From positions 1 to 36,753 of IMG/VR virus record IMGVR_UViG_3300042564_000835: a stretch of DNA of 36,753 nt, one strand, 5' to 3'. Every line of letters starts with the position of its first letter. Within the stretch, counting starts at the first letter, position 1. Below the pieces are notes generated by a model. That model ran no database searches and was not told the DNA's origin. It was given only the letters and a program-made list of their open reading frames with translations. Both the position numbers and the translations under genes were made by a program. This document shows, piece after piece, positions 6,985 to 36,753 of the stretch. The DNA is from a virus.

Positions 6985-7371
6985 ATGCACTCAAATTTTC
7001 ATGATGTTGTTGACTTCCATAACAAATACGGTTTAGTTTATATTGGTAAAGCAAGGCCATTAGACAAAGATACCCAAGCATATCGCGTGCATTTTTTAGA
7101 AGAAGAGCTAAAAGAATTTATTCAAAGTGCTAATTTAGATGATACGGTTGGCATGGCAGACGCATTAATTGACATTGTATATGTGGCAATGGGAACAGCA
7201 TATATGATGGGGTTGCCTTGGCAAAAATTATGGAATGAAGTACATACTACTAATATGAATAAAGTACGTGCAACAAATAGTGAACAATCAAAACGTAAAA
7301 ATTCATTAGATGTTATTAAACCGGAAGGCTGGCAACCACCAAACTTAAAAGCAATTCTTGATGAACAATAA
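6985..7371 (+). CDS. MazG-like nucleotide pyrophosphohydrolase
   Basis: The 128-residue protein has the all-alpha NTP-pyrophosphatase signature: EExxE (Glu40, Glu41, Glu44) followed by DALID (Asp59, Asp63) and VAMGTAYMMGLPW. The C-terminus KPEGWQPPNL is usual for phage members of this family. These enzymes split dNTPs to dNMP and pyrophosphate. Next to a TS-fold enzyme and a dCMP deaminase, the likely substrate is dCTP or dUTP, giving dCMP or dUMP for the next steps, but specificity cannot be read from sequence. It is the first gene of the rightward unit, with AAAGG 8 nt upstream. Confidence 0.8.
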   Translation: MHSNFHDVVDFHNKYGLVYIGKARPLDKDTQAYRVHFLEEELKEFIQSANLDDTVGMADALIDIVYVAMGTAYMMGLPWQKLWNEVHTTNMNKVRATNSEQSKRKNSLDVIKPEGWQPPNLKAILDEQ

Positions 7372-7372
7372 T

Positions 7373-8179
7373 ATGACGTATCAACAGCAATATAAAAAAT
7401 TAGTTAAAGACATATTAGCAATGCCTGATATTCCTAATGACCGTACAAAACAAACTATACAACGTTATAACGGAACTATTGTATTAAGGCATGATAATTA
7501 TGGTATACCAATTGTTGGTGGCCGCAAAGCATATTTACATAGCGGGGCTGCTGAATGTGCATGGTTTTTAATGGGAACAAAAAATTGTGATTGGTTAAAT
7601 GAGCATACAGGTATGTGGAAACAATGGCAAGTTAATAATGAAGTAACTGCTGGATATGGATATAGATGGCGTAATGCCTTAGGGTATGACCAAATAGAAG
7701 CAGCTATTAATAATTTAAAAAAAGATAAAACAACGCGTCGTATTTGGATTAGCTCATGGGACCCAAAAGATGATTGCAATTTAAATGCTATTAATGTGCC
7801 TTGTCCTGTTGGGTTTTATATTGATATAACAAATAAAAAATTAAATATGAGTGTAGTAATGCGCAGCAGTGATGTTGCTGTAGGATTAGTATATGACACT
7901 ATTACATTTAGATGTTTGCAAGCTGTTATTGCTGCTTCTTTAAAAATTGATATAGGGTTTTTAGAATTTATTTTAATTAATGCACATATATATCAAAACC
8001 AAAAAGCAACAATTACAGAATTATTAAAAACAAATAATTTAAATGTTGAAATTAATATTCCACTATTAGAATGGCCATTAGATAAAGTATTAAAAAACCC
8101 AGATAGTTTTGTAAATAATTATAAAAAAATGCAACTATTAGTTCCTTTTCCTGCTATTAAAATGGAAGTTGCTATATGA
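7373..8179 (+). CDS. Thymidylate-synthase-fold enzyme, predicted dCMP hydroxymethylase
   Basis: The 268-residue protein has the ThyA framework: NDRT phosphate loop, AECAWFL, YGYRWR, catalytic Cys144 in VPCPVGF, RSSDV with Arg at Cys+20, and HIY at Cys+61/+63. The residue at Cys+31, which is Asn177 in E. coli ThyA and reads dUMP, is Asp175 here (GLVYDT). Asp at this place marks T4 gp42 dCMP hydroxymethylase, and Asn-to-Asp changes in thymidylate synthase shift preference to dCMP. I therefore predict action on dCMP, making 5-hydroxymethyl- or 5-methyl-dCMP. Start ATG 7373 lies 1 nt after the upstream stop; ATG 7358 is an in-frame alternative. It overlaps dCMP deaminase by 4 nt. Confidence 0.85.
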   Translation: MTYQQQYKKLVKDILAMPDIPNDRTKQTIQRYNGTIVLRHDNYGIPIVGGRKAYLHSGAAECAWFLMGTKNCDWLNEHTGMWKQWQVNNEVTAGYGYRWRNALGYDQIEAAINNLKKDKTTRRIWISSWDPKDDCNLNAINVPCPVGFYIDITNKKLNMSVVMRSSDVAVGLVYDTITFRCLQAVIAASLKIDIGFLEFILINAHIYQNQKATITELLKTNNLNVEINIPLLEWPLDKVLKNPDSFVNNYKKMQLLVPFPAIKMEVAI

Positions 8180-8607
8180 CAAATTGGGATAAAAGGTTTT
8201 TAAATATTGCTAAAGAAGTTAGCACCTGGAGCAAAGACCCGGATGCCAAAGTGGGTGCTGTAATTGTATCTGAAAGTCGTAGAATATTAAGCATAGGGTA
8301 CAATGGATTACCGGCAGCAATGCCTGATACTGATGAATATTTAAATTCAGATAATAAATTAGATTATATAATTCATGCTGAAATGAATAGCATTTATAAT
8401 GCAGGACTTGCTGGGGTGTCTCTTAAAAATTCTACAATATATGTATATGGCAGGCAAGTATGCCATGAATGTATGAAGGGATTAATACAAGCAGGTATAT
8501 CTAATATTGTTACTTATTCAACAGAATCAAGCCAAAAATGGCAAAAAAGCTGGGAAATTGCTCAAAATTTAGCTAAATTTGCTAATATTTCTATTAAAAA
8601 TCAATAA
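8176..8607 (+). CDS. Deoxycytidylate (dCMP) deaminase
   Basis: A zinc-dependent deaminase of 143 residues. HAE (His67, Glu69) and CHEC (Cys96, Cys99) supply the zinc ligands and proton shuttle. SKDPDAKVGAVIV and GYNGLPAAMPD are classic for dCMP deaminases. It turns dCMP into dUMP, feeding thymidylate synthesis. It is joined to the preceding gene by an ATGA overlap. If the neighbour consumes dCMP, the two enzymes share a substrate, as dCMP deaminase and gp42 do in T4; dUMP would then be methylated by the host enzyme. Confidence 0.93.
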   Translation: MTNWDKRFLNIAKEVSTWSKDPDAKVGAVIVSESRRILSIGYNGLPAAMPDTDEYLNSDNKLDYIIHAEMNSIYNAGLAGVSLKNSTIYVYGRQVCHECMKGLIQAGISNIVTYSTESSQKWQKSWEIAQNLAKFANISIKNQ

Positions 8608-8610
8608 CTT

Positions 8611-8704
8611 ATAAAATAATTAATTATTTTGAAAAAAAGTGTTTACTTTTCATAATTACAAATGTACAATGATTCTACAGTTAATTAATACCTGGAGAAT
8701 ATAA
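8611..8704 (+). promoter_or_regulatory. Second rightward promoter region
   Basis: The gap holds the TTTGAAAAAAAGT box (8628-8640) shared with 6912-6924. Downstream, TTTACT and TACAAT with a 17-nt spacer form a fair sigma70 promoter. GGAG precedes the ATG at 8705. Box-to-start distance is similar in both places (73 and 77 nt). Confidence 0.55.
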
Positions 8705-8800
8705 ATGAAAATAAAAACTATGATTATAACGGCAATAGCATTTTGGGCTTATGTATGGCTTTGTTTACATATTATGGGTAAGTTAGCAGGGGCAATATAA
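8705..8800 (+). CDS. Small single-pass membrane peptide, 31 aa
   Basis: MKIKTMIITAIAFWAYVWL begins a short peptide with one hydrophobic segment spanning nearly its whole length. GGAGA lies 7 nt before the ATG. The stop overlaps the next ATG (TAATG). It is first after the promoter region, so early membrane action on the host is possible. Function is unknown. Confidence 0.6.
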   Translation: MKIKTMIITAIAFWAYVWLCLHIMGKLAGAI

Positions 8801-8910
8801 TGGAACGATATTTAGATTATGATGAGTATTTAGACCAACAAGAATTTTGGCGTCAAAAAGAACTTGAAGAGCAGCATCAATTAGAACAACAGGAAAAACA
8901 TGATGAATAA
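8800..8910 (+). CDS. Small acidic Gln/Glu-rich protein, 36 aa
   Basis: It starts MERYLDYDEYLDQQEF and ends in a run of Glu, Gln and His. It is coupled to both neighbours (TAATG upstream, 11-nt overlap downstream). The composition suggests one helix. Function is unknown. Confidence 0.55.
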   Translation: MERYLDYDEYLDQQEFWRQKELEEQHQLEQQEKHDE

Positions 8911-9109
8911 ATGGGGCTGGGATAAAGATAAACATTATTCCTGGTATAATCAATGGGACTTTAAAATTCCAAGAAGTTATAGGGAAAGATATGGAATTGA
9001 ATATAAAACTCAGGACTCAATGCAAGAAAAAAAACAAAAACGTAAAGAAATTTTAATTGCTATTTTATTAATTATTTTATTAAACGGGGTATCAATATGG
9101 ATGAATTAG
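8900..9109 (+). CDS. C-terminally anchored membrane protein, 69 aa
   Basis: The aromatic N-terminus (WGWDKDKHYSWYNQWDF) is followed by a basic stretch KKQKRK and a C-terminal hydrophobic segment ILIAILLIILLNGV, so the bulk would lie in the cytoplasm. AGGA lies before the ATG pair at 8900/8903. It overlaps the next gene by 13 nt. Function is unknown. Confidence 0.62.
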   Translation: MMNKWGWDKDKHYSWYNQWDFKIPRSYRERYGIEYKTQDSMQEKKQKRKEILIAILLIILLNGVSIWMN

Positions 9110-9234
9110 AAGATATTATTAGCCAATTGCAATTAATAAATCAAGAGTTAAAAGATGATAATGATAAATTTGAACATAAAGAAAAAGCATTAAAAGAATT
9201 AAATAAACAGGAGAATATAAATGACAGTCTTTAA
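9097..9234 (+). CDS. Small coiled-coil protein, 45 aa
   Basis: MDELEDIISQLQLINQELKD shows heptad-spaced hydrophobics followed by charged residues, a short coiled coil. It overlaps the ERF gene start by 14 nt, so it may mainly serve translational coupling, or act with ERF. No family is recognised. Confidence 0.55.
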   Translation: MDELEDIISQLQLINQELKDDNDKFEHKEKALKELNKQENINDSL

Positions 9235-9766
9235 AAAACTACAAGCAGCAAGAATTAAATTACAAAATACAGAACTTAAAAAATCTGGCAAAAACAAATT
9301 TGCAGGATATCAATATTTTGAATTAGGTGACTTTTTACCTGTTATTCAGACTATTTGTAATGATATTGGTTTATGTGGCACGGTAACATTTTATACAGAT
9401 ATTGCTGTTTTAACTATAACTGATATAGATGATTCTTCACAATTTATTGAATTTAAATGCCCTATGTCTTCAGCAGCTTTAAAGGGTTGTCATGAGGTGC
9501 AAAATTTAGGCGCGGTTCAAACATATCTTCGTAGGTATTTATGGACAAACGCTTTTGAAATTGTAGAGCATGACTCTATTGATTCTGCAAAACCAATTGA
9601 AGTTGAAGTTGAACAAAATATAACAGAAGAACAATTAGAAATTGCTAAAAATAACTTAGAGGAAGCCGCTAAACGTGGTGAACTTAAACAAGCATTTTTT
9701 AAATTAACGCCAATAGCGCAAGAAAAATTACGCGAATTTGCTAATGAACTTAAGAAATCTGCATGA
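9221..9766 (+). CDS. erf: ERF-family single-strand annealing protein
   Basis: A 181-residue recombinase. KLQAARIKLQNTELKKSG, then FAGYQYFELGDFLP, the beta core and GAVQTYLRRYLW are the conserved blocks of the ERF superfamily (P22 Erf). ERF proteins form rings that anneal complementary single strands, here probably for concatemer formation or repair of fork ends. The acidic C-terminal helix is variable in the family. AGGAG lies 8 nt before the ATG. It overlaps the exonuclease by 4 nt, the usual annealase-exonuclease pair. Confidence 0.9.
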   Translation: MTVFKKLQAARIKLQNTELKKSGKNKFAGYQYFELGDFLPVIQTICNDIGLCGTVTFYTDIAVLTITDIDDSSQFIEFKCPMSSAALKGCHEVQNLGAVQTYLRRYLWTNAFEIVEHDSIDSAKPIEVEVEQNITEEQLEIAKNNLEEAAKRGELKQAFFKLTPIAQEKLREFANELKKSA

Positions 9767-10317
9767 GTCATTTAAAAGATAATAGACGTCATAATATTAT
9801 TACGGCTAGTAATGCTTGGGCTGCAGTTTATGAAAGGCAAAAACTATGGCGTCAAATGACTTTACGTGAACCGCCTTTTGAAGGTAATGAAATGACTCAA
9901 TGGGGAATCGATAATGAACCATTAGCATTAAGTGCATTTGAAAAAGAAATGGATGAAATTTGTTTGCCAGGGAATAAATTAATGGTACATGATACATTAC
10001 CATTTGGGGCATCCCCTGACGCATATTTAGATAATGGCACAGTTGTAGAATTAAAATGCCCATATTCACAGGAATATTATGATGTTATGCCGCCGCGTTA
10101 TTATTTTCAAATACAAATGCAAATGCTAGTATGCAATCAAAATATGGCTTGGTTTGGTGTTTGGATACCTAATGGTATTAGGATACAAAATATTACATAT
10201 AATAAAAAATGGGAAGATTGGTATATCCCATTAGCATTAGAATTTATGCAATACGTTAATGATGACGTAGAGCCTAAACGTTGGACAAGAAAACCTATTT
10301 TTAACATAGAGGAGTAA
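9763..10317 (+). CDS. YqaJ/lambda-exonuclease-type 5'-3' exonuclease
   Basis: The 184-residue PD-(D/E)xK nuclease shows GxxxE in TQWGIDNEPLAL (Glu52), the active-site Asp86 in GASPDAYL, ELK in VVELKCPYS (Glu96, Lys98) and the QIQMQML motif. It would digest one strand of double-stranded ends to give the single strands that ERF anneals. Start overlaps the erf stop (ATGA). Confidence 0.92.
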   Translation: MSHLKDNRRHNIITASNAWAAVYERQKLWRQMTLREPPFEGNEMTQWGIDNEPLALSAFEKEMDEICLPGNKLMVHDTLPFGASPDAYLDNGTVVELKCPYSQEYYDVMPPRYYFQIQMQMLVCNQNMAWFGVWIPNGIRIQNITYNKKWEDWYIPLALEFMQYVNDDVEPKRWTRKPIFNIEE

Positions 10318-10320
10318 AGT

Positions 10321-10563
10321 ATGGCGCAATATGACAATACAAATACATTTGCATTATTTATTAATGACAAAGGAGAAAATCCTAAACGCCCGGATTGGAG
10401 TGGCACAGCAAATCTTAATGGCGTTGAATTTAGATTATCTGGATGGAAACGAGAAAGTGCTCGTGGCGAATTTATTTCTGGACAAATACAAACAAAAGAA
10501 ATAAAAAATGCAGAATATGGCAAACCTGCTGTAGAAGGTTCAGAAGAGGATGTGCCCTTTTAA
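10321..10563 (+). CDS. SSB-like protein with acidic DVPF tail, 80 aa
   Basis: The protein has a short beta-rich body (FALFINDKGENPKRPDWSG, NLNGVEFRLSGW) and ends EEDVPF, very like the DDIPF tail by which SSB proteins recruit host partners. It follows annealase and exonuclease genes, where phages often keep an SSB. It is smaller than standard SSB (about 110-180 residues). GAGGAG precedes the ATG. Confidence 0.68.
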   Translation: MAQYDNTNTFALFINDKGENPKRPDWSGTANLNGVEFRLSGWKRESARGEFISGQIQTKEIKNAEYGKPAVEGSEEDVPF

Positions 10564-10572
10564 GGCGCATCC
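10548..10572. other. Stable hairpin at the SSB / pqqA junction
   Basis: GGATGTGCC (10548-10556) pairs with GGCGCATCC (10564-10572) with one G-U, 7-nt loop. It spans the SSB stop codon. On the plus strand no U-tract follows. On the minus strand the T-run comes before it, so it is not a standard terminator; it may stabilise the 3' ends of the two convergent mRNAs. Confidence 0.5.
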
Positions 10573-10588
10573 CCAGCTAAAAAAATAA

Positions 10589-10660
10589 TTACTTATTCAT
10601 AACGTACATAGTTACTTCAAAGCCAAAACGCATTTCTGTAACTGCTGGAGTTGTCCACAT
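10589..10660 (-). CDS. pqqA: PqqA, precursor peptide of pyrroloquinoline quinone
   Basis: A 23-codon gene on the opposite strand to its neighbours encodes a peptide that starts MWTTPAVTEMR and has the PqqA core GFEVTMY. Glu15 and Tyr19, the two residues joined by the radical-SAM enzyme PqqE to build PQQ, are both present with the required three-residue spacing, and the length equals that of classical PqqA (23 residues). AAGGA lies about 8 nt before the ATG. No pqqB-E genes are in the window, so the peptide must be processed by host PqqD/PqqE/PqqF-G/B/C. It sits alone in a 218-bp gap between convergent and divergent plus-strand genes, like an independently acquired cargo gene. Confidence 0.92.
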   Translation of the reverse strand: MWTTPAVTEMRFGFEVTMYVMNK

Positions 10661-10781
10661 AGTATTTCCTTTTATAAATATATTATGCTTAATTGCACAA
10701 TATAATAAGATTATACTAAATATACATTATAAATAATAATGCAAATTTACTAATTATTACTAATAGAAATGCTTAATTATT
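10661..10781. promoter_or_regulatory. AT-rich gap with candidate promoters on both strands
   Basis: This gap lies upstream of both pqqA (minus) and the SleB-like gene (plus). TATAAT occurs on the minus strand at 10715-10710 and 10731-10726, but no good -35 is at 17 nt. On the plus strand TTGCAC is at 10693-10698 with only weak -10 matches. Promoters for both genes are expected here, but I cannot fix them. Confidence 0.35.
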
Positions 10782-11156
10782 ATGGATATTAATACATTAG
10801 ATTTATATATGAGTTGTTATGCACATGCAGCATATCATGAAGCATCAACGCAACAAGAAATTATTGGTGTATTTAATGTTATACGTAACCGTGTTAAAAG
10901 TAAAAACTATGGAAATGACCCGTGTGAAGTTGTATACGCTAATTCGCAATTCCAAGGCATAACAGATGTAAATCATGAAGAGGTTGATAATAAAAGATAT
11001 TTACAAATAAAATATACAGCAATAGATGCTATTTATCTTAATAAAATTAAAAACCCAATAGGTAATAAACTACATTTTTATGATGATAGTATTAATACTC
11101 CAGCGGGTTGGAAAAATTGCAATATTAAAATAGGAAGGTTGGTGTTTTGTGACTGA
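10782..11156 (+). CDS. SleB/Hydrolase_2-type cell-wall hydrolase
   Basis: The 124-residue protein contains AAYHEAS, with the likely catalytic Glu20, then IIGVFNVIRNRVKS and DPCEVVYANSQFQG, the conserved pattern of SleB-like lytic transglycosylases. It lacks a signal peptide and is in the early region, far from holin and endolysin, so a role other than final lysis, such as local wall remodelling, is possible. Confidence 0.82.
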   Translation: MDINTLDLYMSCYAHAAYHEASTQQEIIGVFNVIRNRVKSKNYGNDPCEVVYANSQFQGITDVNHEEVDNKRYLQIKYTAIDAIYLNKIKNPIGNKLHFYDDSINTPAGWKNCNIKIGRLVFCD

Positions 11157-11382
11157 ACCAGTAGCATGGCTTTATCAAGAATTTTGTGTTAAATCAGGCG
11201 ACCTAAAGAAGTCTTATTTATGGTCATTTCACCCAAATCAGCTTTCATATTTAAATGATTTAAAAAATACAACTCATTATATAAAGATAATTCCTTTGTT
11301 TCCTGGTGAACCTGTAGAAGAATATAAAGGATTATCTAAGTATGATAGCAAACGTCTTGTAGAGGCTAACAGTGGATTATAA
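11149..11382 (+). CDS. Hypothetical protein, 77 aa, GTG start
   Basis: MTEPVAWLYQEF and the Pro-rich VIIPLFPGEPVEEY-like region recall small phage proteins with a VAWLY opening that are common and of unknown function. The GTG at 11149 overlaps the hydrolase gene by 8 nt. AGGAAGG lies upstream. Confidence 0.6.
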   Translation: MTEPVAWLYQEFCVKSGDLKKSYLWSFHPNQLSYLNDLKNTTHYIKIIPLFPGEPVEEYKGLSKYDSKRLVEANSGL

Positions 11383-11578
11383 ATGGAAAGGCACCCCTGA
11401 ATTAATTATTGGTATTATTATTGGGGCAGTAATTACATGGGGAATTATGGAGTATAAATGTACTATTAAACAACGCAGTACAAATTTAAAATGTATTCAA
11501 GGTGAATTATACGAAGAAATTAAACCTAATATCTTTGCTAAAAGTCACCTGGAATGTTTCGAGCAAACTAGACTATAG
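11372..11578 (+). CDS. Small membrane protein, 68 aa, GTG start
   Basis: A hydrophobic segment LIIGIIIGAVITWGIM near residues 11-26 is followed by a Cys- and Lys-containing tail. GAGG lies before the GTG. It overlaps the preceding gene by 11 nt. Function is unknown; the place after a wall hydrolase may be chance. Confidence 0.58.
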   Translation: MDYKWKGTPELIIGIIIGAVITWGIMEYKCTIKQRSTNLKCIQGELYEEIKPNIFAKSHLECFEQTRL

Positions 11579-11586
11579 GAGAAATT

Positions 11587-11793
11587 ATGTATACGCAAAT
11601 TGATGATTTAAAACATGCTAATTTAATTAAAGAGTATTTAGAACAAAACCCCGCAGCAAACCGTGCGGATTTAACTACTGCTTTAAGATTGAATCATAGA
11701 AGATTAATACAATTAGATAAAATAGGGGCAATTGTATTACCTGCGGTTACCCCAATGGGACAAAGAAATAAGGTAAAAACTGATAGATTATAA
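11587..11793 (+). CDS. Small helix-turn-helix-like protein, 68 aa
   Basis: LIKEYLEQNPAANRADLTTA followed by LRLNHRRLIQL reads as a short helix-turn-helix, as in MarR/homeodomain-like small regulators. AGGAG lies before the ATG. It could be an early regulator. No family is named with confidence. Confidence 0.58.
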   Translation: MYTQIDDLKHANLIKEYLEQNPAANRADLTTALRLNHRRLIQLDKIGAIVLPAVTPMGQRNKVKTDRL

Positions 11794-11853
11794 TACACTT
11801 TTTATCATTTATATGATAATATAATTATATTACAATTAATAAAGGCTTATTTT

Positions 11854-12240
11854 ATGACAAACATTAATAATATTTTAGATGAACGTGGCAGTCGTTATGG
11901 CGACTTTTCATCTAATGCAACAACAACACAATTAATAAAACAAGCAATTAATCTTGGTGATACTACCAATAAATTATCGTTTTATCAACGTGAAGCATTA
12001 GAAATGATTGCTCATAAAATAAGTCGTATTGTAAATGGCGATGCAAATTATATGGATTCATGGATTGATATTATAGGTTATGCACAATTAGTAATTGATA
12101 AATTGCAACATGATAAAGATGAAATTCAAGAATTAGTTAATACTTTTGAAGATGATATTACATTAAGTAATAATGATGAAAATAATAATGATATGCAAAC
12201 TACTGCATTTTTAGAAAGACTTGAGGATTTAGATGACTAA
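11854..12240 (+). CDS. DUF6378-like phage protein, 128 aa
   Basis: The N-terminus ILDERGSRYGDF and the block QREALEMIAHKISRIVNG with YMDSWIDIIGYAQL match a widespread phage family that I know as DUF6378, function unknown, all-helical and distantly like MazG. The C-terminus is acidic. The preceding 60 nt contain an inverted repeat TATCAT/ATGATA and a TATAAT, possibly regulatory. Confidence 0.72.
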   Translation: MTNINNILDERGSRYGDFSSNATTTQLIKQAINLGDTTNKLSFYQREALEMIAHKISRIVNGDANYMDSWIDIIGYAQLVIDKLQHDKDEIQELVNTFEDDITLSNNDENNNDMQTTAFLERLEDLDD

Positions 12241-12388
12241 AATATATTGGATATTTATTGTAGTAATGGCTGCATTAGCTATTTTTTGGACTGAAAAAGT
12301 ATTTAGCCAAACAACCACTATATTAGCCCCGGACGGTTCTGTAACAGTTTGTCAAGTTGGTTCTAATGGAATAATTATTTGTGTCTAA
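12233..12388 (+). CDS. Small exported or membrane protein, 51 aa
   Basis: MTKIYWIFIVVMAALAIFW is a signal or anchor sequence; the rest (TTILAPDGSVTVCQVGSNG) contains two Cys and could lie in the periplasm. It overlaps both neighbours by 8 nt. Function is unknown. Confidence 0.58.
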   Translation: MTKIYWIFIVVMAALAIFWTEKVFSQTTTILAPDGSVTVCQVGSNGIIICV

Positions 12389-12752
12389 TGGAATGAGAAA
12401 CCAAATGGCCAGTCATACTGACTTTGGCTTTTTAAGAGGATTATTTGAAGATAGCCCTAAAATTATGCCATCTAATTTAGATATGATATATGGCATTAAT
12501 GATAAGTTTTTATTGGGGGAATGGAAACGTGATAATGAAGAAATTTCAGAAGGTCAAAAAATACTTCTTAAAGCTTTATCAAAAGAACCTAACTTTACTG
12601 TAATACTTATTAATGGATATTCAAATAATACGGGTATTTATATTTCAAAATATTATCAAATATCACAAACATCACTTATTTATCTTGGAAATTCAATAGA
12701 TAGCCTTAAAGATTACATTCAAACTTGGTATAAACTAGCAAAACGTATTTAA
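12381..12752 (+). CDS. PD-(D/E)xK-like nuclease, 123 aa
   Basis: The segment PSNLDMIYGINDKFLLGEWK has the spacing of a PD-(D/E)xK active site (Asp34, then Glu47-Trp-Lys49), followed by EGQKILLKAL with a helper Gln. Phage proteins of this shape are usually annotated as hypothetical, sometimes as resolvase-like. The GTG at 12381 overlaps the previous gene; an ATG at 12393 is an alternative. It is the last gene of the rightward unit. Confidence 0.6.
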   Translation: MSNGMRNQMASHTDFGFLRGLFEDSPKIMPSNLDMIYGINDKFLLGEWKRDNEEISEGQKILLKALSKEPNFTVILINGYSNNTGIYISKYYQISQTSLIYLGNSIDSLKDYIQTWYKLAKRI

Positions 12753-29075: not shown

Positions 29076-29775
29076 CTAATTGTCCTTTTAGTCTATCCCA
29101 GCACTTGTCCATCTCATCTTTATGCCATTCACTAGCAGCTAATGAGCTTAACCATGCTGTTCTGTCAAAATATGTTAAGTTTTCTATGTCTTTAATGTTA
29201 TTGGATACAGGGTTTGCAGGGCTATAAGGTGAACCTATGACAGGAACACCACGAATAAGTGCTTCTACATCTGCGACACTACCAAAACTCACAATGACAT
29301 GAGCTTTTTCTAATGTTTGTTTAAAGTCACCTTCGCCTTTACGCTTAATGACAATCTTTCTTTCTGTATGTTTTCTAATCTCTTCTACCGTTCTGTCTAA
29401 CCAATTAGAAGTTTGGTAAATATAAGCTATCTTTTCTGGTGGAGGTAACACAACTACGTTTTCACCACTACGATACTCGTGAACTTTAGGTGTTTCTCTA
29501 TCTGATACACGCCAATCTGTGCAATGGTAGTTATTTACACAGAATCTAGCCCATTCTAATTCAGATGACCTGTGAAAGTAGCCATGGTCTATTAGAATAT
29601 AAGGTATGTTTTGTTCTCTACAGGCTATTTGTATCTTATCTGCACCCTGTAAATTACCTACTACAACTGGAATAGACTTACCATCCCATTCTCTTGTTAA
29701 AATACCCTTACAATGCTTTTGCAAGCGTTTTAAGACCTTATCTCTGCGTTCTATGCCACTCAGTATTAACTGCAT
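29062..29775 (-). CDS. GT-B-like / capsule-synthesis-like glycosyltransferase, 237 aa
   Basis: The C-terminal half shows a nucleotide-sugar binding pattern (VIVSFGSVADVEALIRGVPV then GSPYSPANPVS) like polysaccharide transferases of the capsule synthesis type. The N-terminal half has VVVGNLQGADK and IPYILIDHGYF. It is the third gene of a glycosyltransferase block inside the head operon and overlaps its neighbour by 38 nt, so the exact start is uncertain. Confidence 0.62.
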   Translation of the reverse strand: MQLILSGIERRDKVLKRLQKHCKGILTREWDGKSIPVVVGNLQGADKIQIACREQNIPYILIDHGYFHRSSELEWARFCVNNYHCTDWRVSDRETPKVHEYRSGENVVVLPPPEKIAYIYQTSNWLDRTVEEIRKHTERKIVIKRKGEGDFKQTLEKAHVIVSFGSVADVEALIRGVPVIGSPYSPANPVSNNIKDIENLTYFDRTAWLSSLAASEWHKDEMDKCWDRLKGQLDGVY

Positions 29776-30490
29776 CTAAAACCTGTTCTACGGTGATTGC
29801 TTTGCTTTTTAGAAGGCAATGTTGACATACGCTATCATAAGTCCCACATGGCTCTGAACCGTCATGTATATTTCTATGGGTGTCATATCCTAAGTGCCTC
29901 GGTGAAGTAAAACCTGTCCATATCACTACGGAAGGTATGCCTAATGCTGCTGCTGCATGATGTAAACCACCATCTGTGCCTACAAATAACTTTGCTTTGC
30001 TTAATACTTGTAATGCTTCTCTAAAGGTATTTGTTTCTTTCCACTTTGTATATCGTTTTACAGTAACATCACCTAACTGTAGCCATGGTAAGTCATGTTT
30101 AAATAACTCTTCCCAATCATGCCATGCTTTATTAACTGTGTGTGCATAGACTCTTTTAACATTAGGCTCTACTACTATGTAGTCCTTATCTATTTTATCT
30201 ATGACTTCTTGTTCTTGTTCACTAAAGTATATTTCGCCTACTCTAGGCTTATAGTCATCATTGAATAATAACCGACCATTCTTAGTGCCTTTGAGATATG
30301 GTCTATGACCTTGATAGTTTTTAACCCATACTACGTCTGTATCAGAGTTACTAGCCATTCTAGGATTGTTAGCAAATACTTGACCATCCCATGACATTCT
30401 AACGCCATCACCTAACTTAACCTTCTTACCGGTTCTTTCGTGAGCTTCTTTAGCATCACCTGATGCCATTAACCAATCACCAAGTCCCAT
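29738..30490 (-). CDS. GT9-like glycosyltransferase (heptosyltransferase type), 250 aa
   Basis: The opening GLGDWLMASGDAKEA and the segment LFVGTDGGLHHAAAALGIPSV are typical of the GT9 heptosyltransferase fold, followed by a Cys-rich loop (CGTYDSVCQHCLL). In cells GT9 enzymes add heptose to LPS core. Here the acceptor is unknown. It overlaps the TPR protein by 14 nt and clearly acts with it or after it. Confidence 0.76.
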   Translation of the reverse strand: MGLGDWLMASGDAKEAHERTGKKVKLGDGVRMSWDGQVFANNPRMASNSDTDVVWVKNYQGHRPYLKGTKNGRLLFNDDYKPRVGEIYFSEQEQEVIDKIDKDYIVVEPNVKRVYAHTVNKAWHDWEELFKHDLPWLQLGDVTVKRYTKWKETNTFREALQVLSKAKLFVGTDGGLHHAAAALGIPSVVIWTGFTSPRHLGYDTHRNIHDGSEPCGTYDSVCQHCLLKSKAITVEQVLDAVNTEWHRTQR

Positions 30491-31817
30491 TTAACTGTTT
30501 AGCCACTTTATTGATAACTTCTTTCCAAGTATCATTGTCTTGGTAGATAATTCTCATGTGACGATACCAAGGCATACTAGGTTGAGCATAACGCCATTGA
30601 TGCCATGTAGGAACTAGACACCATGTCTTTACTCCCATAGCTGCTGCACAATGTTGAGCAGTTGTATTTACACCTAAGACCATATCACATTCAGCTATTA
30701 ACGCTGCTGTATCATCATAGTCTTTTGCACTTGTTGCAAAATCAAAGTATTTAACACCGTCTAATTTGCGTTCTACGCTATAATCTAAACTGACTATCAC
30801 ATAGTCTTTGAGCTTTAATAATGGTTCTATATCTTCTTGTGTTAGTTCACGACCTTTAGCGTTAGTATGTTTAATACCACCTTTAGTCGTAAGACCTATA
30901 ACTTTCTTACCCCATGAGTCAAATAACCCACGCCACATAGTGCGTCTTTCAGGGTCAGCTTTTAGATAAGGTGTGCCAGGAAAGTCTTTATTCGTATGTC
31001 TAAAGAACTGTGGTAAACCACCTATGGCACATCTGTAATCAAACTTCTTATCTGCTAACCATTCAGGGCTATCTTCTTTACGAGTGCCATGAACTTCTGC
31101 TTCTGGAAAGCTACGTTTAAATAATCCTTCCAGTCTTGGGTCACAGTCTATATAGACTTGCTTACTAGAGCTAATAGCATCAGGAATACAGCTACCATAA
31201 AATATCTCATCACCTAGACCTTGTTCGCCATAGATAATAAGTGTTTTGTCTTTAGTGCCATCCCATCTTATTTCGTCACCATATACCCATTCTTTACGGA
31301 ACTTACCACCTAGTGACTTATGCCATTCTGCCCAACCTTTATCCCATTCACCTTTAGCTAAGTAAGTGTGTGCTAGGTTTAGTTGACCATGTAAGTCGTT
31401 AGGGTTACATTCTAAAGCCATCTTACAGGCTTTCTCTGCATCATCCCATTTAGATGTTTGTACTAGCGTTGCTGCTGCATTAGAATAAGCTAATGCGTAT
31501 GTAGGGTCTAATTCTGCTGACTTTAAGAAATACTTTAGAGCATCTTCATACATGTTTAGTTCATGTGCTGCACGACCTAGTGATGTCCATATAGCTTTAT
31601 TGCCTGGCATCTCTTGTAATGCTCTACGGAAGAACTGATATGCAAATGCAGGCTTATCGCCCATTAACCAGATATAACCTAAGAAGTTTAATGTAGCGGC
31701 TTCATTAGGATATTCTTCTAATACAGAATATATAAGTGGTAATGCTTCGTCATACTTTTCCTGATTGATAAGGTCATGTATGGCTAATTGTATCTTTTGT
31801 ATTTCTTGTTTATCCAT
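30477..31817 (-). CDS. TPR repeat protein fused to GT9-like glycosyltransferase, 446 aa
   Basis: Residues about 15-170 contain four to five tetratricopeptide repeats (for example ATLNFLGYIWLMGDKPAFAY and AYSNAAATLVQTSKWDDAEK). From about 190 a transferase domain begins (TLIIYGEQGLGDEIFYGSCI) and has VLGVNTTAQHCAAAMGVKTW near its end, equivalent to the GT9 sugar-nucleotide site. TPR-transferase fusions often glycosylate proteins, as O-GlcNAc transferase does. A virion protein is therefore a possible acceptor. Confidence 0.8.
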   Translation of the reverse strand: MDKQEIQKIQLAIHDLINQEKYDEALPLIYSVLEEYPNEAATLNFLGYIWLMGDKPAFAYQFFRRALQEMPGNKAIWTSLGRAAHELNMYEDALKYFLKSAELDPTYALAYSNAAATLVQTSKWDDAEKACKMALECNPNDLHGQLNLAHTYLAKGEWDKGWAEWHKSLGGKFRKEWVYGDEIRWDGTKDKTLIIYGEQGLGDEIFYGSCIPDAISSSKQVYIDCDPRLEGLFKRSFPEAEVHGTRKEDSPEWLADKKFDYRCAIGGLPQFFRHTNKDFPGTPYLKADPERRTMWRGLFDSWGKKVIGLTTKGGIKHTNAKGRELTQEDIEPLLKLKDYVIVSLDYSVERKLDGVKYFDFATSAKDYDDTAALIAECDMVLGVNTTAQHCAAAMGVKTWCLVPTWHQWRYAQPSMPWYRHMRIIYQDNDTWKEVINKVAKQLNGTW

Positions 31818-34492: not shown

Positions 34493-36485
34493 ACATCATC
34501 CCTGATTGTGCTTTGATTTGTGCGATAGCTAAATCAGTCTCAGCTTTTAATTGTGCCTTGAAGCGTTCTAGTTCTGCTTGAGCTGCTATCTTTTCACGTT
34601 CAATTATAACATCATTCTGTGAACGTACTTGCTCTTGTTGTAGTTGAGCTTGAGCTTTTTGTTGTTCAATTTGCAACTGACCTTGCACCATAATCTCTGC
34701 TTCAGAAGGCTTGTCTTGTTGACCTTCTTGCTCAGGTGTATTAGCTGGATTAACCCAGAACTCTTCAGGGTTCTTAAAGCCTGCATTCTGTGTAAGTTTA
34801 GCTAATGCGTTATATATCTTTTCAGGGTTAGTTAAGCCAACAGCAATAGCTTCTTTTTGCATATTTAAGATAGATGTTAAGTGAACCAATTGTTGGTCTT
34901 TATTACCTGCACCTAAGCCTACAGAGATAGATAAGTCTTTACGAGCTTTCCATTCTCTAGGGTCTACTTCTACCCATTTGTTACGTAGACGAATAATGTC
35001 TGGTTTAGTAAGTGTTGTTCTAACTAAATGATGCACAAGTTTAAATAACTCTTTAACGCCTGTCTCTGCAAATGTTCTAGCTACTAACTCAATACGTTGT
35101 TGAGACGCATTCATAATCTGTGCTACACCAGTAGCTGTCTTATTAAGACTGTTAGAGTCTAAGCCTTGGTTGTAAGCTGTGATACCTGTTCTCTTCTCTT
35201 TCATAGAGTCCATGTATTCAACCATACCGAATGATGATGCTGGTAGTGGTGGATGTGATAAAGGCATAATGCCTGAACCTGGGTCACCTTCTACACGAAC
35301 AATACCACCTGGACGTGACGTTAGCATATCGTCTAGGTTTACTCTGTCAGATATTGCATAACGACCATTGTTAGCTAGATACATATTATCTAACTGACCA
35401 CGAATAAGTGTTGACTTAATTAACTGAATGTCCATAGTCAAGTCAGCATAAGAACGACCAATATGTCTATGTGGCATTATCATAGGTGTGATACATGCGA
35501 AAGGTACATACTCACATTTCTCTTTATAAAGAACTGTGTTACCTAATACGACTACTCTATATCTTTCACCATCTAACTTAATGTATGTGTCTTTAACGAG
35601 TGCTTCTTGTGACTCAATAGCTCTATCATATTCTTCATCATAAATATCACGAGCATTAGACTCTTCTTCAAAAGTGTCTCGTAGGTCTGACATAATAGAC
35701 TTGATGTATTCTAATGGCTTGTCAAACGTTTCAGCAATGTCAGCTAACTGCATAACTTCTCTGTGTTGAACAAACTTAGCATCTTGTAGGTTAGGACCTG
35801 ATACCTCTACAGATATCATCATGTTTTCAGGTGCTACGTTATCAATGTATATTTCAGTCTTGCTTTCTGTAACCTTGAGCTTAACGTCATGTAACATAGG
35901 TTGCATAACTGTAGCTGGGTCTACACCATTCATAGCTGCTTGTTGATAGACAACATCCATGTTGACACTTGGGTCAGGGTAACCAGTATGCTCTAATACT
36001 TCTGTATTCTCATCTGAAGCCAACATTTGAAGTTGGGCGTCTGTCAACCCCTTGTATTCGTATTCTTCTTCTTCCTCTTCTTCTTCGGCATATACTTTTA
36101 CATAACCGTTCTTAGATAGTAATGCGTCTTTAAACCATACATAGAATACTTTGAAACCTTCGTTCTTTTCCATAACGACATGGTTTACATAATCTGTTTC
36201 TTGGTCTGCTGCTTCTTGGTCTTCAGGACCTTTAGGGTCAAACTGAACAACCTTATCACCGGCTACAAAGACTTTTAAAAGCTGAGGGAGAGCTGACTCA
36301 ATAGTATCTTGAACGTCATACGATACAACTTGTGAACGACCTTCTTCTTCGTTACCGAATGGTTGTCCTAGGTAATAGTCAATCGCTTCTGCTCTATCAT
36401 TAGACAATGCACTATCATTTACACCATAGGCTATATTCTCTTGAGCCTCTATCTGTGCAATTATTTCCATGTCTTCTATATTCAT
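34482..36485 (-). CDS. Portal protein (P22-like), 667 aa
   Basis: The 12-subunit portal ring is the gate for packaging and tail attachment. DDYYLGQPFG-like AIDYYLGQPFGNEEEGRSQV, then LPQLLKVFVAGDKVVQF and FVPCITPMIMPHRHIGRSYA-like segments are characteristic of the P22-type portal family. A run of acidic residues (Glu135-143 region) lies in the wing. The last 80 residues are a Gln/Ala coiled coil (LQIEQQKAQAQLQQEQ), like the P22 barrel. Start ATG 36485 overlaps the terL stop (TAATG). Confidence 0.92.
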   Translation of the reverse strand: MNIEDMEIIAQIEAQENIAYGVNDSALSNDRAEAIDYYLGQPFGNEEEGRSQVVSYDVQDTIESALPQLLKVFVAGDKVVQFDPKGPEDQEAADQETDYVNHVVMEKNEGFKVFYVWFKDALLSKNGYVKVYAEEEEEEEEYEYKGLTDAQLQMLASDENTEVLEHTGYPDPSVNMDVVYQQAAMNGVDPATVMQPMLHDVKLKVTESKTEIYIDNVAPENMMISVEVSGPNLQDAKFVQHREVMQLADIAETFDKPLEYIKSIMSDLRDTFEEESNARDIYDEEYDRAIESQEALVKDTYIKLDGERYRVVVLGNTVLYKEKCEYVPFACITPMIMPHRHIGRSYADLTMDIQLIKSTLIRGQLDNMYLANNGRYAISDRVNLDDMLTSRPGGIVRVEGDPGSGIMPLSHPPLPASSFGMVEYMDSMKEKRTGITAYNQGLDSNSLNKTATGVAQIMNASQQRIELVARTFAETGVKELFKLVHHLVRTTLTKPDIIRLRNKWVEVDPREWKARKDLSISVGLGAGNKDQQLVHLTSILNMQKEAIAVGLTNPEKIYNALAKLTQNAGFKNPEEFWVNPANTPEQEGQQDKPSEAEIMVQGQLQIEQQKAQAQLQQEQVRSQNDVIIEREKIAAQAELERFKAQLKAETDLAIAQIKAQSGMMYGG

Positions 36486-36753
36486 TAAACAATTCCTCTA
36501 TTTGTATATTGTATTTTCTCTTTGCTCCATGACTCGTTCTTCATAGACTCAATAGAGGTACATAAATATCTGAACGCATCTGCTCCATGAGAGAACTCAT
36601 CATGCAATGGTGCACCAGGTTCGTTGGTTGCAGAGTTTATACTTCTGCGATAATTCTTTAAACATTCAACAAGTCTTTGTGCTGACTTATCAAAGTATAT
36701 ACGGTGGAAGTTCATACGTGCTAACTTAATACCAGACTCTATGTCTGCTTTAG
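36249..36753. repeat. Right copy of near-identical 505-bp terminal overlap
   Basis: This is the partner of 1-505. Nine of the 13 mismatches lie within 22 bases (36590-36611), all but one silent. True terminal repeats of one molecule would be identical, so this is better read as an overlap between two variants. Confidence 0.93.
36485..36753 (-). CDS. terL: Terminase large subunit, C-terminal fragment (second copy)
   Basis: The last 89 codons of TerL, cut by the window edge. Compared with 237-505 the protein differs only by Phe for Tyr in HDEFSHGADAF, although there are ten base changes in this stretch including the stop codon. It is the same gene as 237-1493 on a circular map, from a slightly different variant. 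Confidence 0.92.
   Translation of the reverse strand, partial: KADIESGIKLARMNFHRIYFDKSAQRLVECLKNYRRSINSATNEPGAPLHDEFSHGADAFRYLCTSIESMKNESWSKEKIQYTNRGIV

Follow-up and report, generated by a model that had tools for sequence, protein, structure and literature searches.

PqqA is the peptide that is consumed in making the cofactor PQQ. A general precedent for what we propose for pqqA is found in cyanophage genes of the psbA type, where the phage likewise replenishes the part of the host's energy metabolism that is lost fast; the psbA product is a protein subunit that becomes damaged, while PqqA is a peptide substrate that is turned into a cofactor. Another phage gene for C1 oxidation is pmoC of the large methanotroph phages (PMC7674155), which unlike pqqA encodes an enzyme subunit, and PQQ is not mentioned in the main text of that paper. 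The closest described system is the Lake Baikal virus population VP_266, assigned to Methylophilaceae, which encodes PqqA and was proposed to aid methanol oxidation (PMC7678222, 2020), so that the idea of a phage pqqA is not wholly new. A 2026 paper also reports pqqA among the viral genes of reservoir sediment (PMC13188868), and none of the papers describing the isolates Venkman, MEP301, MEP401/402 and Melnitz mentions PQQ genes in its main text. In the pathway itself PqqD binds PqqA and PqqE joins a Glu and a Tyr of the peptide (PMC10906245), and in the Methylophilaceae multiple pqqA accompany a single pqqBCDE (PMC4109929).

Here we describe a pqqA gene on a 36,753 bp IMG/VR virus record, the whole of which is called the window below. 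With portal and major capsid proteins of SU10 type, it is an SU10-like podovirus of small size (36.8 kb), whereas VP_266 is T4-like and also has a methanol dehydrogenase (PMC7678222), a gene that we found in none of the window ORFs scanned. Phage PqqA as a kind is already known; what appears to be new, within the literature searched, is its near-standard occurrence among methylophages, together with an operator shared with the host.

Results

The reverse strand of window positions 10589-10660 encodes MWTTPAVTEMRFGFEVTMYVMNK followed by a stop (TAA), with the ATG at the 10660 end, and is a 23-codon pqqA whose coordinates, strand and length are exactly those given in an initial annotation made from the sequence. 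The peptide matches the Pfam family PqqA (PF08042) at 41.6 bits against a cut-off of 21.1 (E 1.1e-10) and the NCBIfam equivalog TIGR02107 at 44.8 bits against a cut-off of 20 (E 7.2e-12), so that the proposed identity held up in both profile alignments; it is also the only PF08042 match in the whole record. Glu15 and Tyr19 are in place as had been claimed, four residues apart in the E-V-T-x-Y core. Phage PqqA shares its length, every core residue, Glu15, Tyr19 and the ribosome site with Methylophilaceae PqqA, and the phage copies stay within the host variation at most positions; the window peptide has Val7 where the common Methylophilaceae host form has Ala7. Unlike the gene in these hosts, pqqA of the window stands alone, with no pqqBCDE on the phage. 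The match goes far beyond chance because independent relatives preserve the frame with mainly synonymous change, and it is well supported that the window ORF is a complete copy of the pqqA of a methanol-eating host and functions as a coding sequence.

The gene is flanked on one side by an Erf annealing protein, a YqaJ/RecE-like exonuclease (9763-10317, plus strand; PF09588) and a single-strand DNA-binding protein (SSB; 10321-10563, plus strand; PHROG 18154, E 3e-13), and on the other by a divergent cell-wall hydrolase (10782-11156, plus strand; PF07486). It lies on the minus strand amid plus-strand genes that extend from about 6985 to 12752, and the remaining minus-strand ORFs there look like shadows of real genes, in agreement with the earlier description of a lone minus-strand gene in a plus-strand island. 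The same record holds terminase, SU10 portal, major capsid protein, lysozyme, Erf and SSB genes. Host contamination was rejected, given these structural genes and the lack of pqqB, pqqC and pqqE in the fetched stretches of the viral pqqA loci. The locus thus has the marks of a phage auxiliary metabolic gene, namely a bona fide phage genome, homology to a host metabolic gene and maintenance under selection.

Upstream of the ATG we found the ribosome site that the initial annotation had assigned to the gene, a Shine-Dalgarno-like AAGGA at 10667-10671 (minus strand), and nearly all phage and host pqqA copies are preceded by AAGGA or AAGGAG. A TATAAT -10-like box (GTATAAT; 10710-10715, minus strand) lies about 49 nt 5' of the ATG; among 110 nonredundant phage copies, 21 have GTATAAT upstream where 2.0 would be expected. 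A consensus sigma-70 scan did not call any promoter on the minus strand, since it needs a -35. The stretch of leader that separates the -10 box from the ribosome site can fold into a hairpin of about 10 pairs with the loop AATTAA (10679-10704, minus strand; -10 kcal/mol), and a search of 10300-11200 against Rfam found no RNA element. The leaders of pqqA are modestly more structured than shuffled sequences, with a mean z of -1.1 in phages and -1.3 in hosts; short hairpins of variable sequence are seen just 5' of the ribosome site (about -60 to -13) in both, and it is possible that they act as mRNA stabilisers.

To follow the gene in relatives we retrieved loci through the neighbouring exonuclease and hydrolase genes, a search blind to PqqA in which the peptide did not pick the loci; this set replaced an earlier dN/dS set that was biased because its loci had been chosen by a protein-derived pattern. 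Among relatives with enough flank, pqqA was present in 25 of 27 contigs found with the exonuclease (at least 45% identity) and in all 30 newly listed loci found with the hydrolase (at least 72% identity). Together the retrieved set comprises 55 loci on 52 contigs with 29 distinct DNA sequences, and every 23-codon frame is intact. Nucleotide differences are 72% synonymous where 19% would be expected from the sites (pS 0.48, pN 0.044, pN/pS 0.09), and Glu15, Tyr19, Arg11, Gly13 and the FGFEVTMY core are invariant in the 29 distinct sequences. The phage gene, judged by this substitution pattern, is a translated peptide under purifying selection; the search of related phages suggested in the initial annotation gave 55 intact loci, and not the broken frames lacking a synonymous excess that it had named as counter-evidence. 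The gene is missing from some relatives: a related 36 kb record (L272) has no PqqA match anywhere, showing that pqqA is not essential to the lineage, and it is absent from a 5.1 kb exonuclease relative (L275) and from the distant relatives L279-L281 and L313, while three contigs (L266, L267, L293) stop before or at the pqqA slot.

A translated search for PqqA over 50,697 phage records returned ten Methylophilales phages and one cave-spring phage, which bar two bacterial contigs are all the PqqA phages in that collection; PqqA-bearing records include the Methylophilaceae phage P19250A, MEP301, Venkman, MEP401, MEP402, four Melnitz strains and one uncultivated Manatee Spring phage. Three other PqqA types used as queries gave the same phage records or a subset of them. 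Every named phage with pqqA infects Methylophilales, and many phages of other PQQ-using bacteria were present among the records searched. The two set-aside contigs carry the name Acinetobacter phage MD-2021a (CAKLQF020000010 and CAKLQH020000055); they are taken as bacterial because in CAKLQF020000010, which encodes ppk, pqqB, pqqC, pqqD and related bacterial genes, pqqBCDE adjoins pqqA.

The phages concerned differ in kind, being siphovirus-like, podovirus-like or, for Melnitz, T4-like, and when a 5.1 kb stretch of the window was compared with the DNA of P19250A, MEP301, MEP401/402, Venkman and Melnitz-1 the match covered only about 85-100 bp over pqqA; the pqqA-bearing phages are several unrelated lineages. 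That pqqA is found on a phage was correctly recognised at the outset, but it is not special to the window phage, as the gene is widespread and mostly unannotated. The initial annotation had expected so small a gene to be easily missed by gene callers; no feature is annotated at pqqA in P19250A, MEP301, Venkman, MEP401 or MEP402, and Melnitz was given an antisense ORF. In the Melnitz record MZ577097 this miscall is a hypothetical protein (L007:4961-5066) on the strand opposite to the real pqqA that it overlaps.

A pattern scan of IMG/VR found at least 120 contigs with pqqA. Among the matches listed all peptides are of the Methylophilaceae type except one that is Klebsiella-like (L124), which together with two further Klebsiella-like contigs (L326, L327) was set aside as probable host flank. 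None of pqqB, pqqC and pqqE was seen within the fetched DNA of the 120 viral pqqA loci listed. Other PqqA types, for example MKWETPTYVDLRFGFEVTMYIHNR, occur on a further 41 contigs, some of them very large, and pqqB, pqqC and pqqE were likewise not found in the stored DNA of these contigs, whose hosts are possibly methanotrophs. The IMG/VR contig L340, at 372,016 bp, has one of these other types beside phage-like genes, and other PqqA types are also carried by the large contigs L332, L339, L349, L325 and L350.

When the upstream regions of nonredundant phage copies were searched for motifs, T[CA]ATG[AG]TTTTC[CT]KTAK was returned with a likelihood of 618.8 bits against about 80 in shuffled controls. 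Of the upstream regions, 77 of 98 from phages and 63 of 85 from hosts contain the motif, with 2.8 expected by shuffling in the phage set, and its commonest distance to a -10-like (T/C)ATAAT in phages is 21 nt. Over the 120 phage loci listed there were 74 strong matches upstream of pqqA against 7 in the remaining 2 Mb, a ratio inflated by the motif having been learned from the same phage loci. An element above 9 bits precedes 108 of the 113 Methylophilaceae-type IMG/VR copies listed, and in 75 of these it exceeds 15 bits. A stricter palindrome, TMATGAWWWTMMTKAS, was found at 3-5 places per genome in five host genomes, with 0 for the reversed control; all three places in genome G041 are its three pqqA copies, and in the other four genomes most of the places read adjoin pqqA or pqqB, with a few sites unassigned. 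We read TCATGA-WWW-TCATGA as a candidate PQQ-regulon operator common to most phage and host pqqA. This sequence precedes pqqA copies and pqqB in genomes G001, G014, G041, G075 and G083 (e.g. L357, L360 and L369).

The window pqqA itself has no good copy of the element (best score 1.0 bit within 170 nt upstream); an 11.4-bit site at -180 falls inside the neighbouring gene and is probably there by chance. The clade of the window retains a degenerate trace of the element at most and has the TATAAT box instead. The element is absent from most contigs that carry other PqqA types, scoring above 9 bits in 7 of 35; this is what one would expect of an element that follows the host.

Discussion

The host predicted for the window phage, a PQQ-making methylotroph, fits our data, in that the closest peptides to its PqqA come from Methylophilaceae genomes and the named pqqA phages infect Methylophilales. 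Phage PqqA is identical or near-identical to that of Methylophilaceae, and the genomes sharing the EMRFGFEVTMY core are by title almost all Methylophilaceae (Methylotenera, Methylophilus, Methylopumilus, OM43), the others being MAGs labelled more broadly, e.g. Betaproteobacteria or Nitrosomonadales. All 121 Methylophilaceae genomes examined have pqqA, in 1-12 scattered copies, which agrees with the multiple copies published for the family (PMC4109929), and these extra copies suggest that the supply of precursor is important to it. In one small Methylophilaceae genome (G014, locus L360) two pqqA lie in tandem about 200 bp apart.

We consider it probable, arguing from sequence, that the phage copy is a working auxiliary metabolic gene which tops up PqqA through host PqqB-E and so sustains methanol oxidation. 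The phage gene would be transcribed from its own promoter during infection and translated into a 23-residue PqqA. This peptide would be bound by host PqqD and PqqE and crosslinked between Glu15 and Tyr19, after which host proteases together with PqqB and PqqC would complete PQQ. PqqA is expected to be the first component to run short when host transcription drops, because it is the only one in the pathway that is consumed one-for-one, and its supply could keep PQQ-dependent methanol dehydrogenases (XoxF/MxaF), and with them energy and carbon supply, running until lysis. We infer its expression, its processing by host enzymes, its limiting role and the benefit to the phage. A phage carrying pqqA alone depends on host PqqB-E and can only raise or maintain the substrate. 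The dosage reading, already put forward in the initial annotation, gains support from a peptide that is host-like at the positions that matter, from phages that have no other pqq genes and from hosts with 1-12 copies. For a PQQ producer that has five pqqA copies, PqqB and PqqC were suggested as possible rate-limiting steps (PMC9851590), and PqqA may thus not always be limiting.

The PQQ made in this way could go to a user other than methanol dehydrogenase, for instance a different PQQ enzyme, or to redox protection. PQQ has several users and the benefit considered here is a deduced one; nevertheless the gene is limited, among named phage records, to methylotroph phages despite the presence of phages of other PQQ-using bacteria, a restriction that points to methanol oxidation and makes this alternative unlikely. 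Phage PqqA might instead be a decoy or modulator that sequesters PqqD/PqqE, lowering PQQ or disturbing a PqqA-linked process. The affinity of PqqA for PqqD is sub-micromolar (PMC10906245) and excess peptide could in principle compete, but a decoy need not preserve Glu15, Tyr19 or the exact host core, and a normal substrate that floods the enzymes gets converted rather than trapped. With the crosslinked residues and the entire core unchanged across the 29 distinct copies and identical to the host peptide, we regard the decoy, which the initial annotation had kept as its alternative, as improbable. It is more doubtful still that the operator element soaks up a host pqq regulator and shifts host pqq expression, with the peptide being secondary: the element does precede 108 of the 113 listed copies at above 9 bits, yet the window clade has kept the ORF with no good operator, selection acts on the peptide, and the element stands at a preferred distance from the -10 box, as a promoter element would. 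Finally, a role at the DNA level, as a site of attachment or recombination or as a transient host insertion whose coding capacity is incidental, could explain a short, host-like stretch that stands alone, but is very hard to credit and was rejected: phage copies vary mainly at synonymous sites, both among themselves and relative to hosts, frame, start and ribosome site are kept unlike in an att core, a scan of 30 window ORFs turned up no integrase, and pqqA occurs in methylophage isolates, the T4-like Melnitz among them.

Beside the working-gene reading of the window copy we lean, taking its parts jointly, towards a broader picture in which methylotroph phages repeatedly took up a cassette of host-type PQQ operator, promoter, leader hairpin and 23-codon pqqA, so that the phage gene would answer to the host PQQ regulator. 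The gene would then be near-standard in Methylophilaceae phages of several unrelated kinds and have been missed because callers skip 23-codon ORFs, and the other PqqA types on viral contigs of up to 372 kb would extend the habit to other hosts, possibly methanotrophs.

Methanol oxidation by bacteria of the OM43/LD28 type is a considerable step in the carbon turnover of aquatic systems, and infection would prolong it if their phages routinely supply the PQQ precursor. If this is true, an auxiliary metabolic gene that is among the smallest has escaped notice in nearly all annotated methylophages. The gene offers a simple metagenome marker for phages of PQQ-dependent C1 bacteria, the shared operator is a testable lead to the regulator of PQQ synthesis, and the role of pqqA can be tested in pairs of phage and host that are in culture (Venkman, MEP301, P19250A, Melnitz). 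The OM43 medium of one isolate paper includes added PQQ (PMC9004378), which would mask an effect of the phage gene.

Two further features of the window were seen. Its ends (1-505 and 36249-36753) overlap over 505 bp with 97.4% identity, pointing to a probably near-complete genome, circularly permuted or redundant, in which strain variants are mixed. Its structural half encodes glycosyltransferases of families 8 and 9 and a TPR protein, at 1812-2606, 29738-30490 and 30477-31817 (-).
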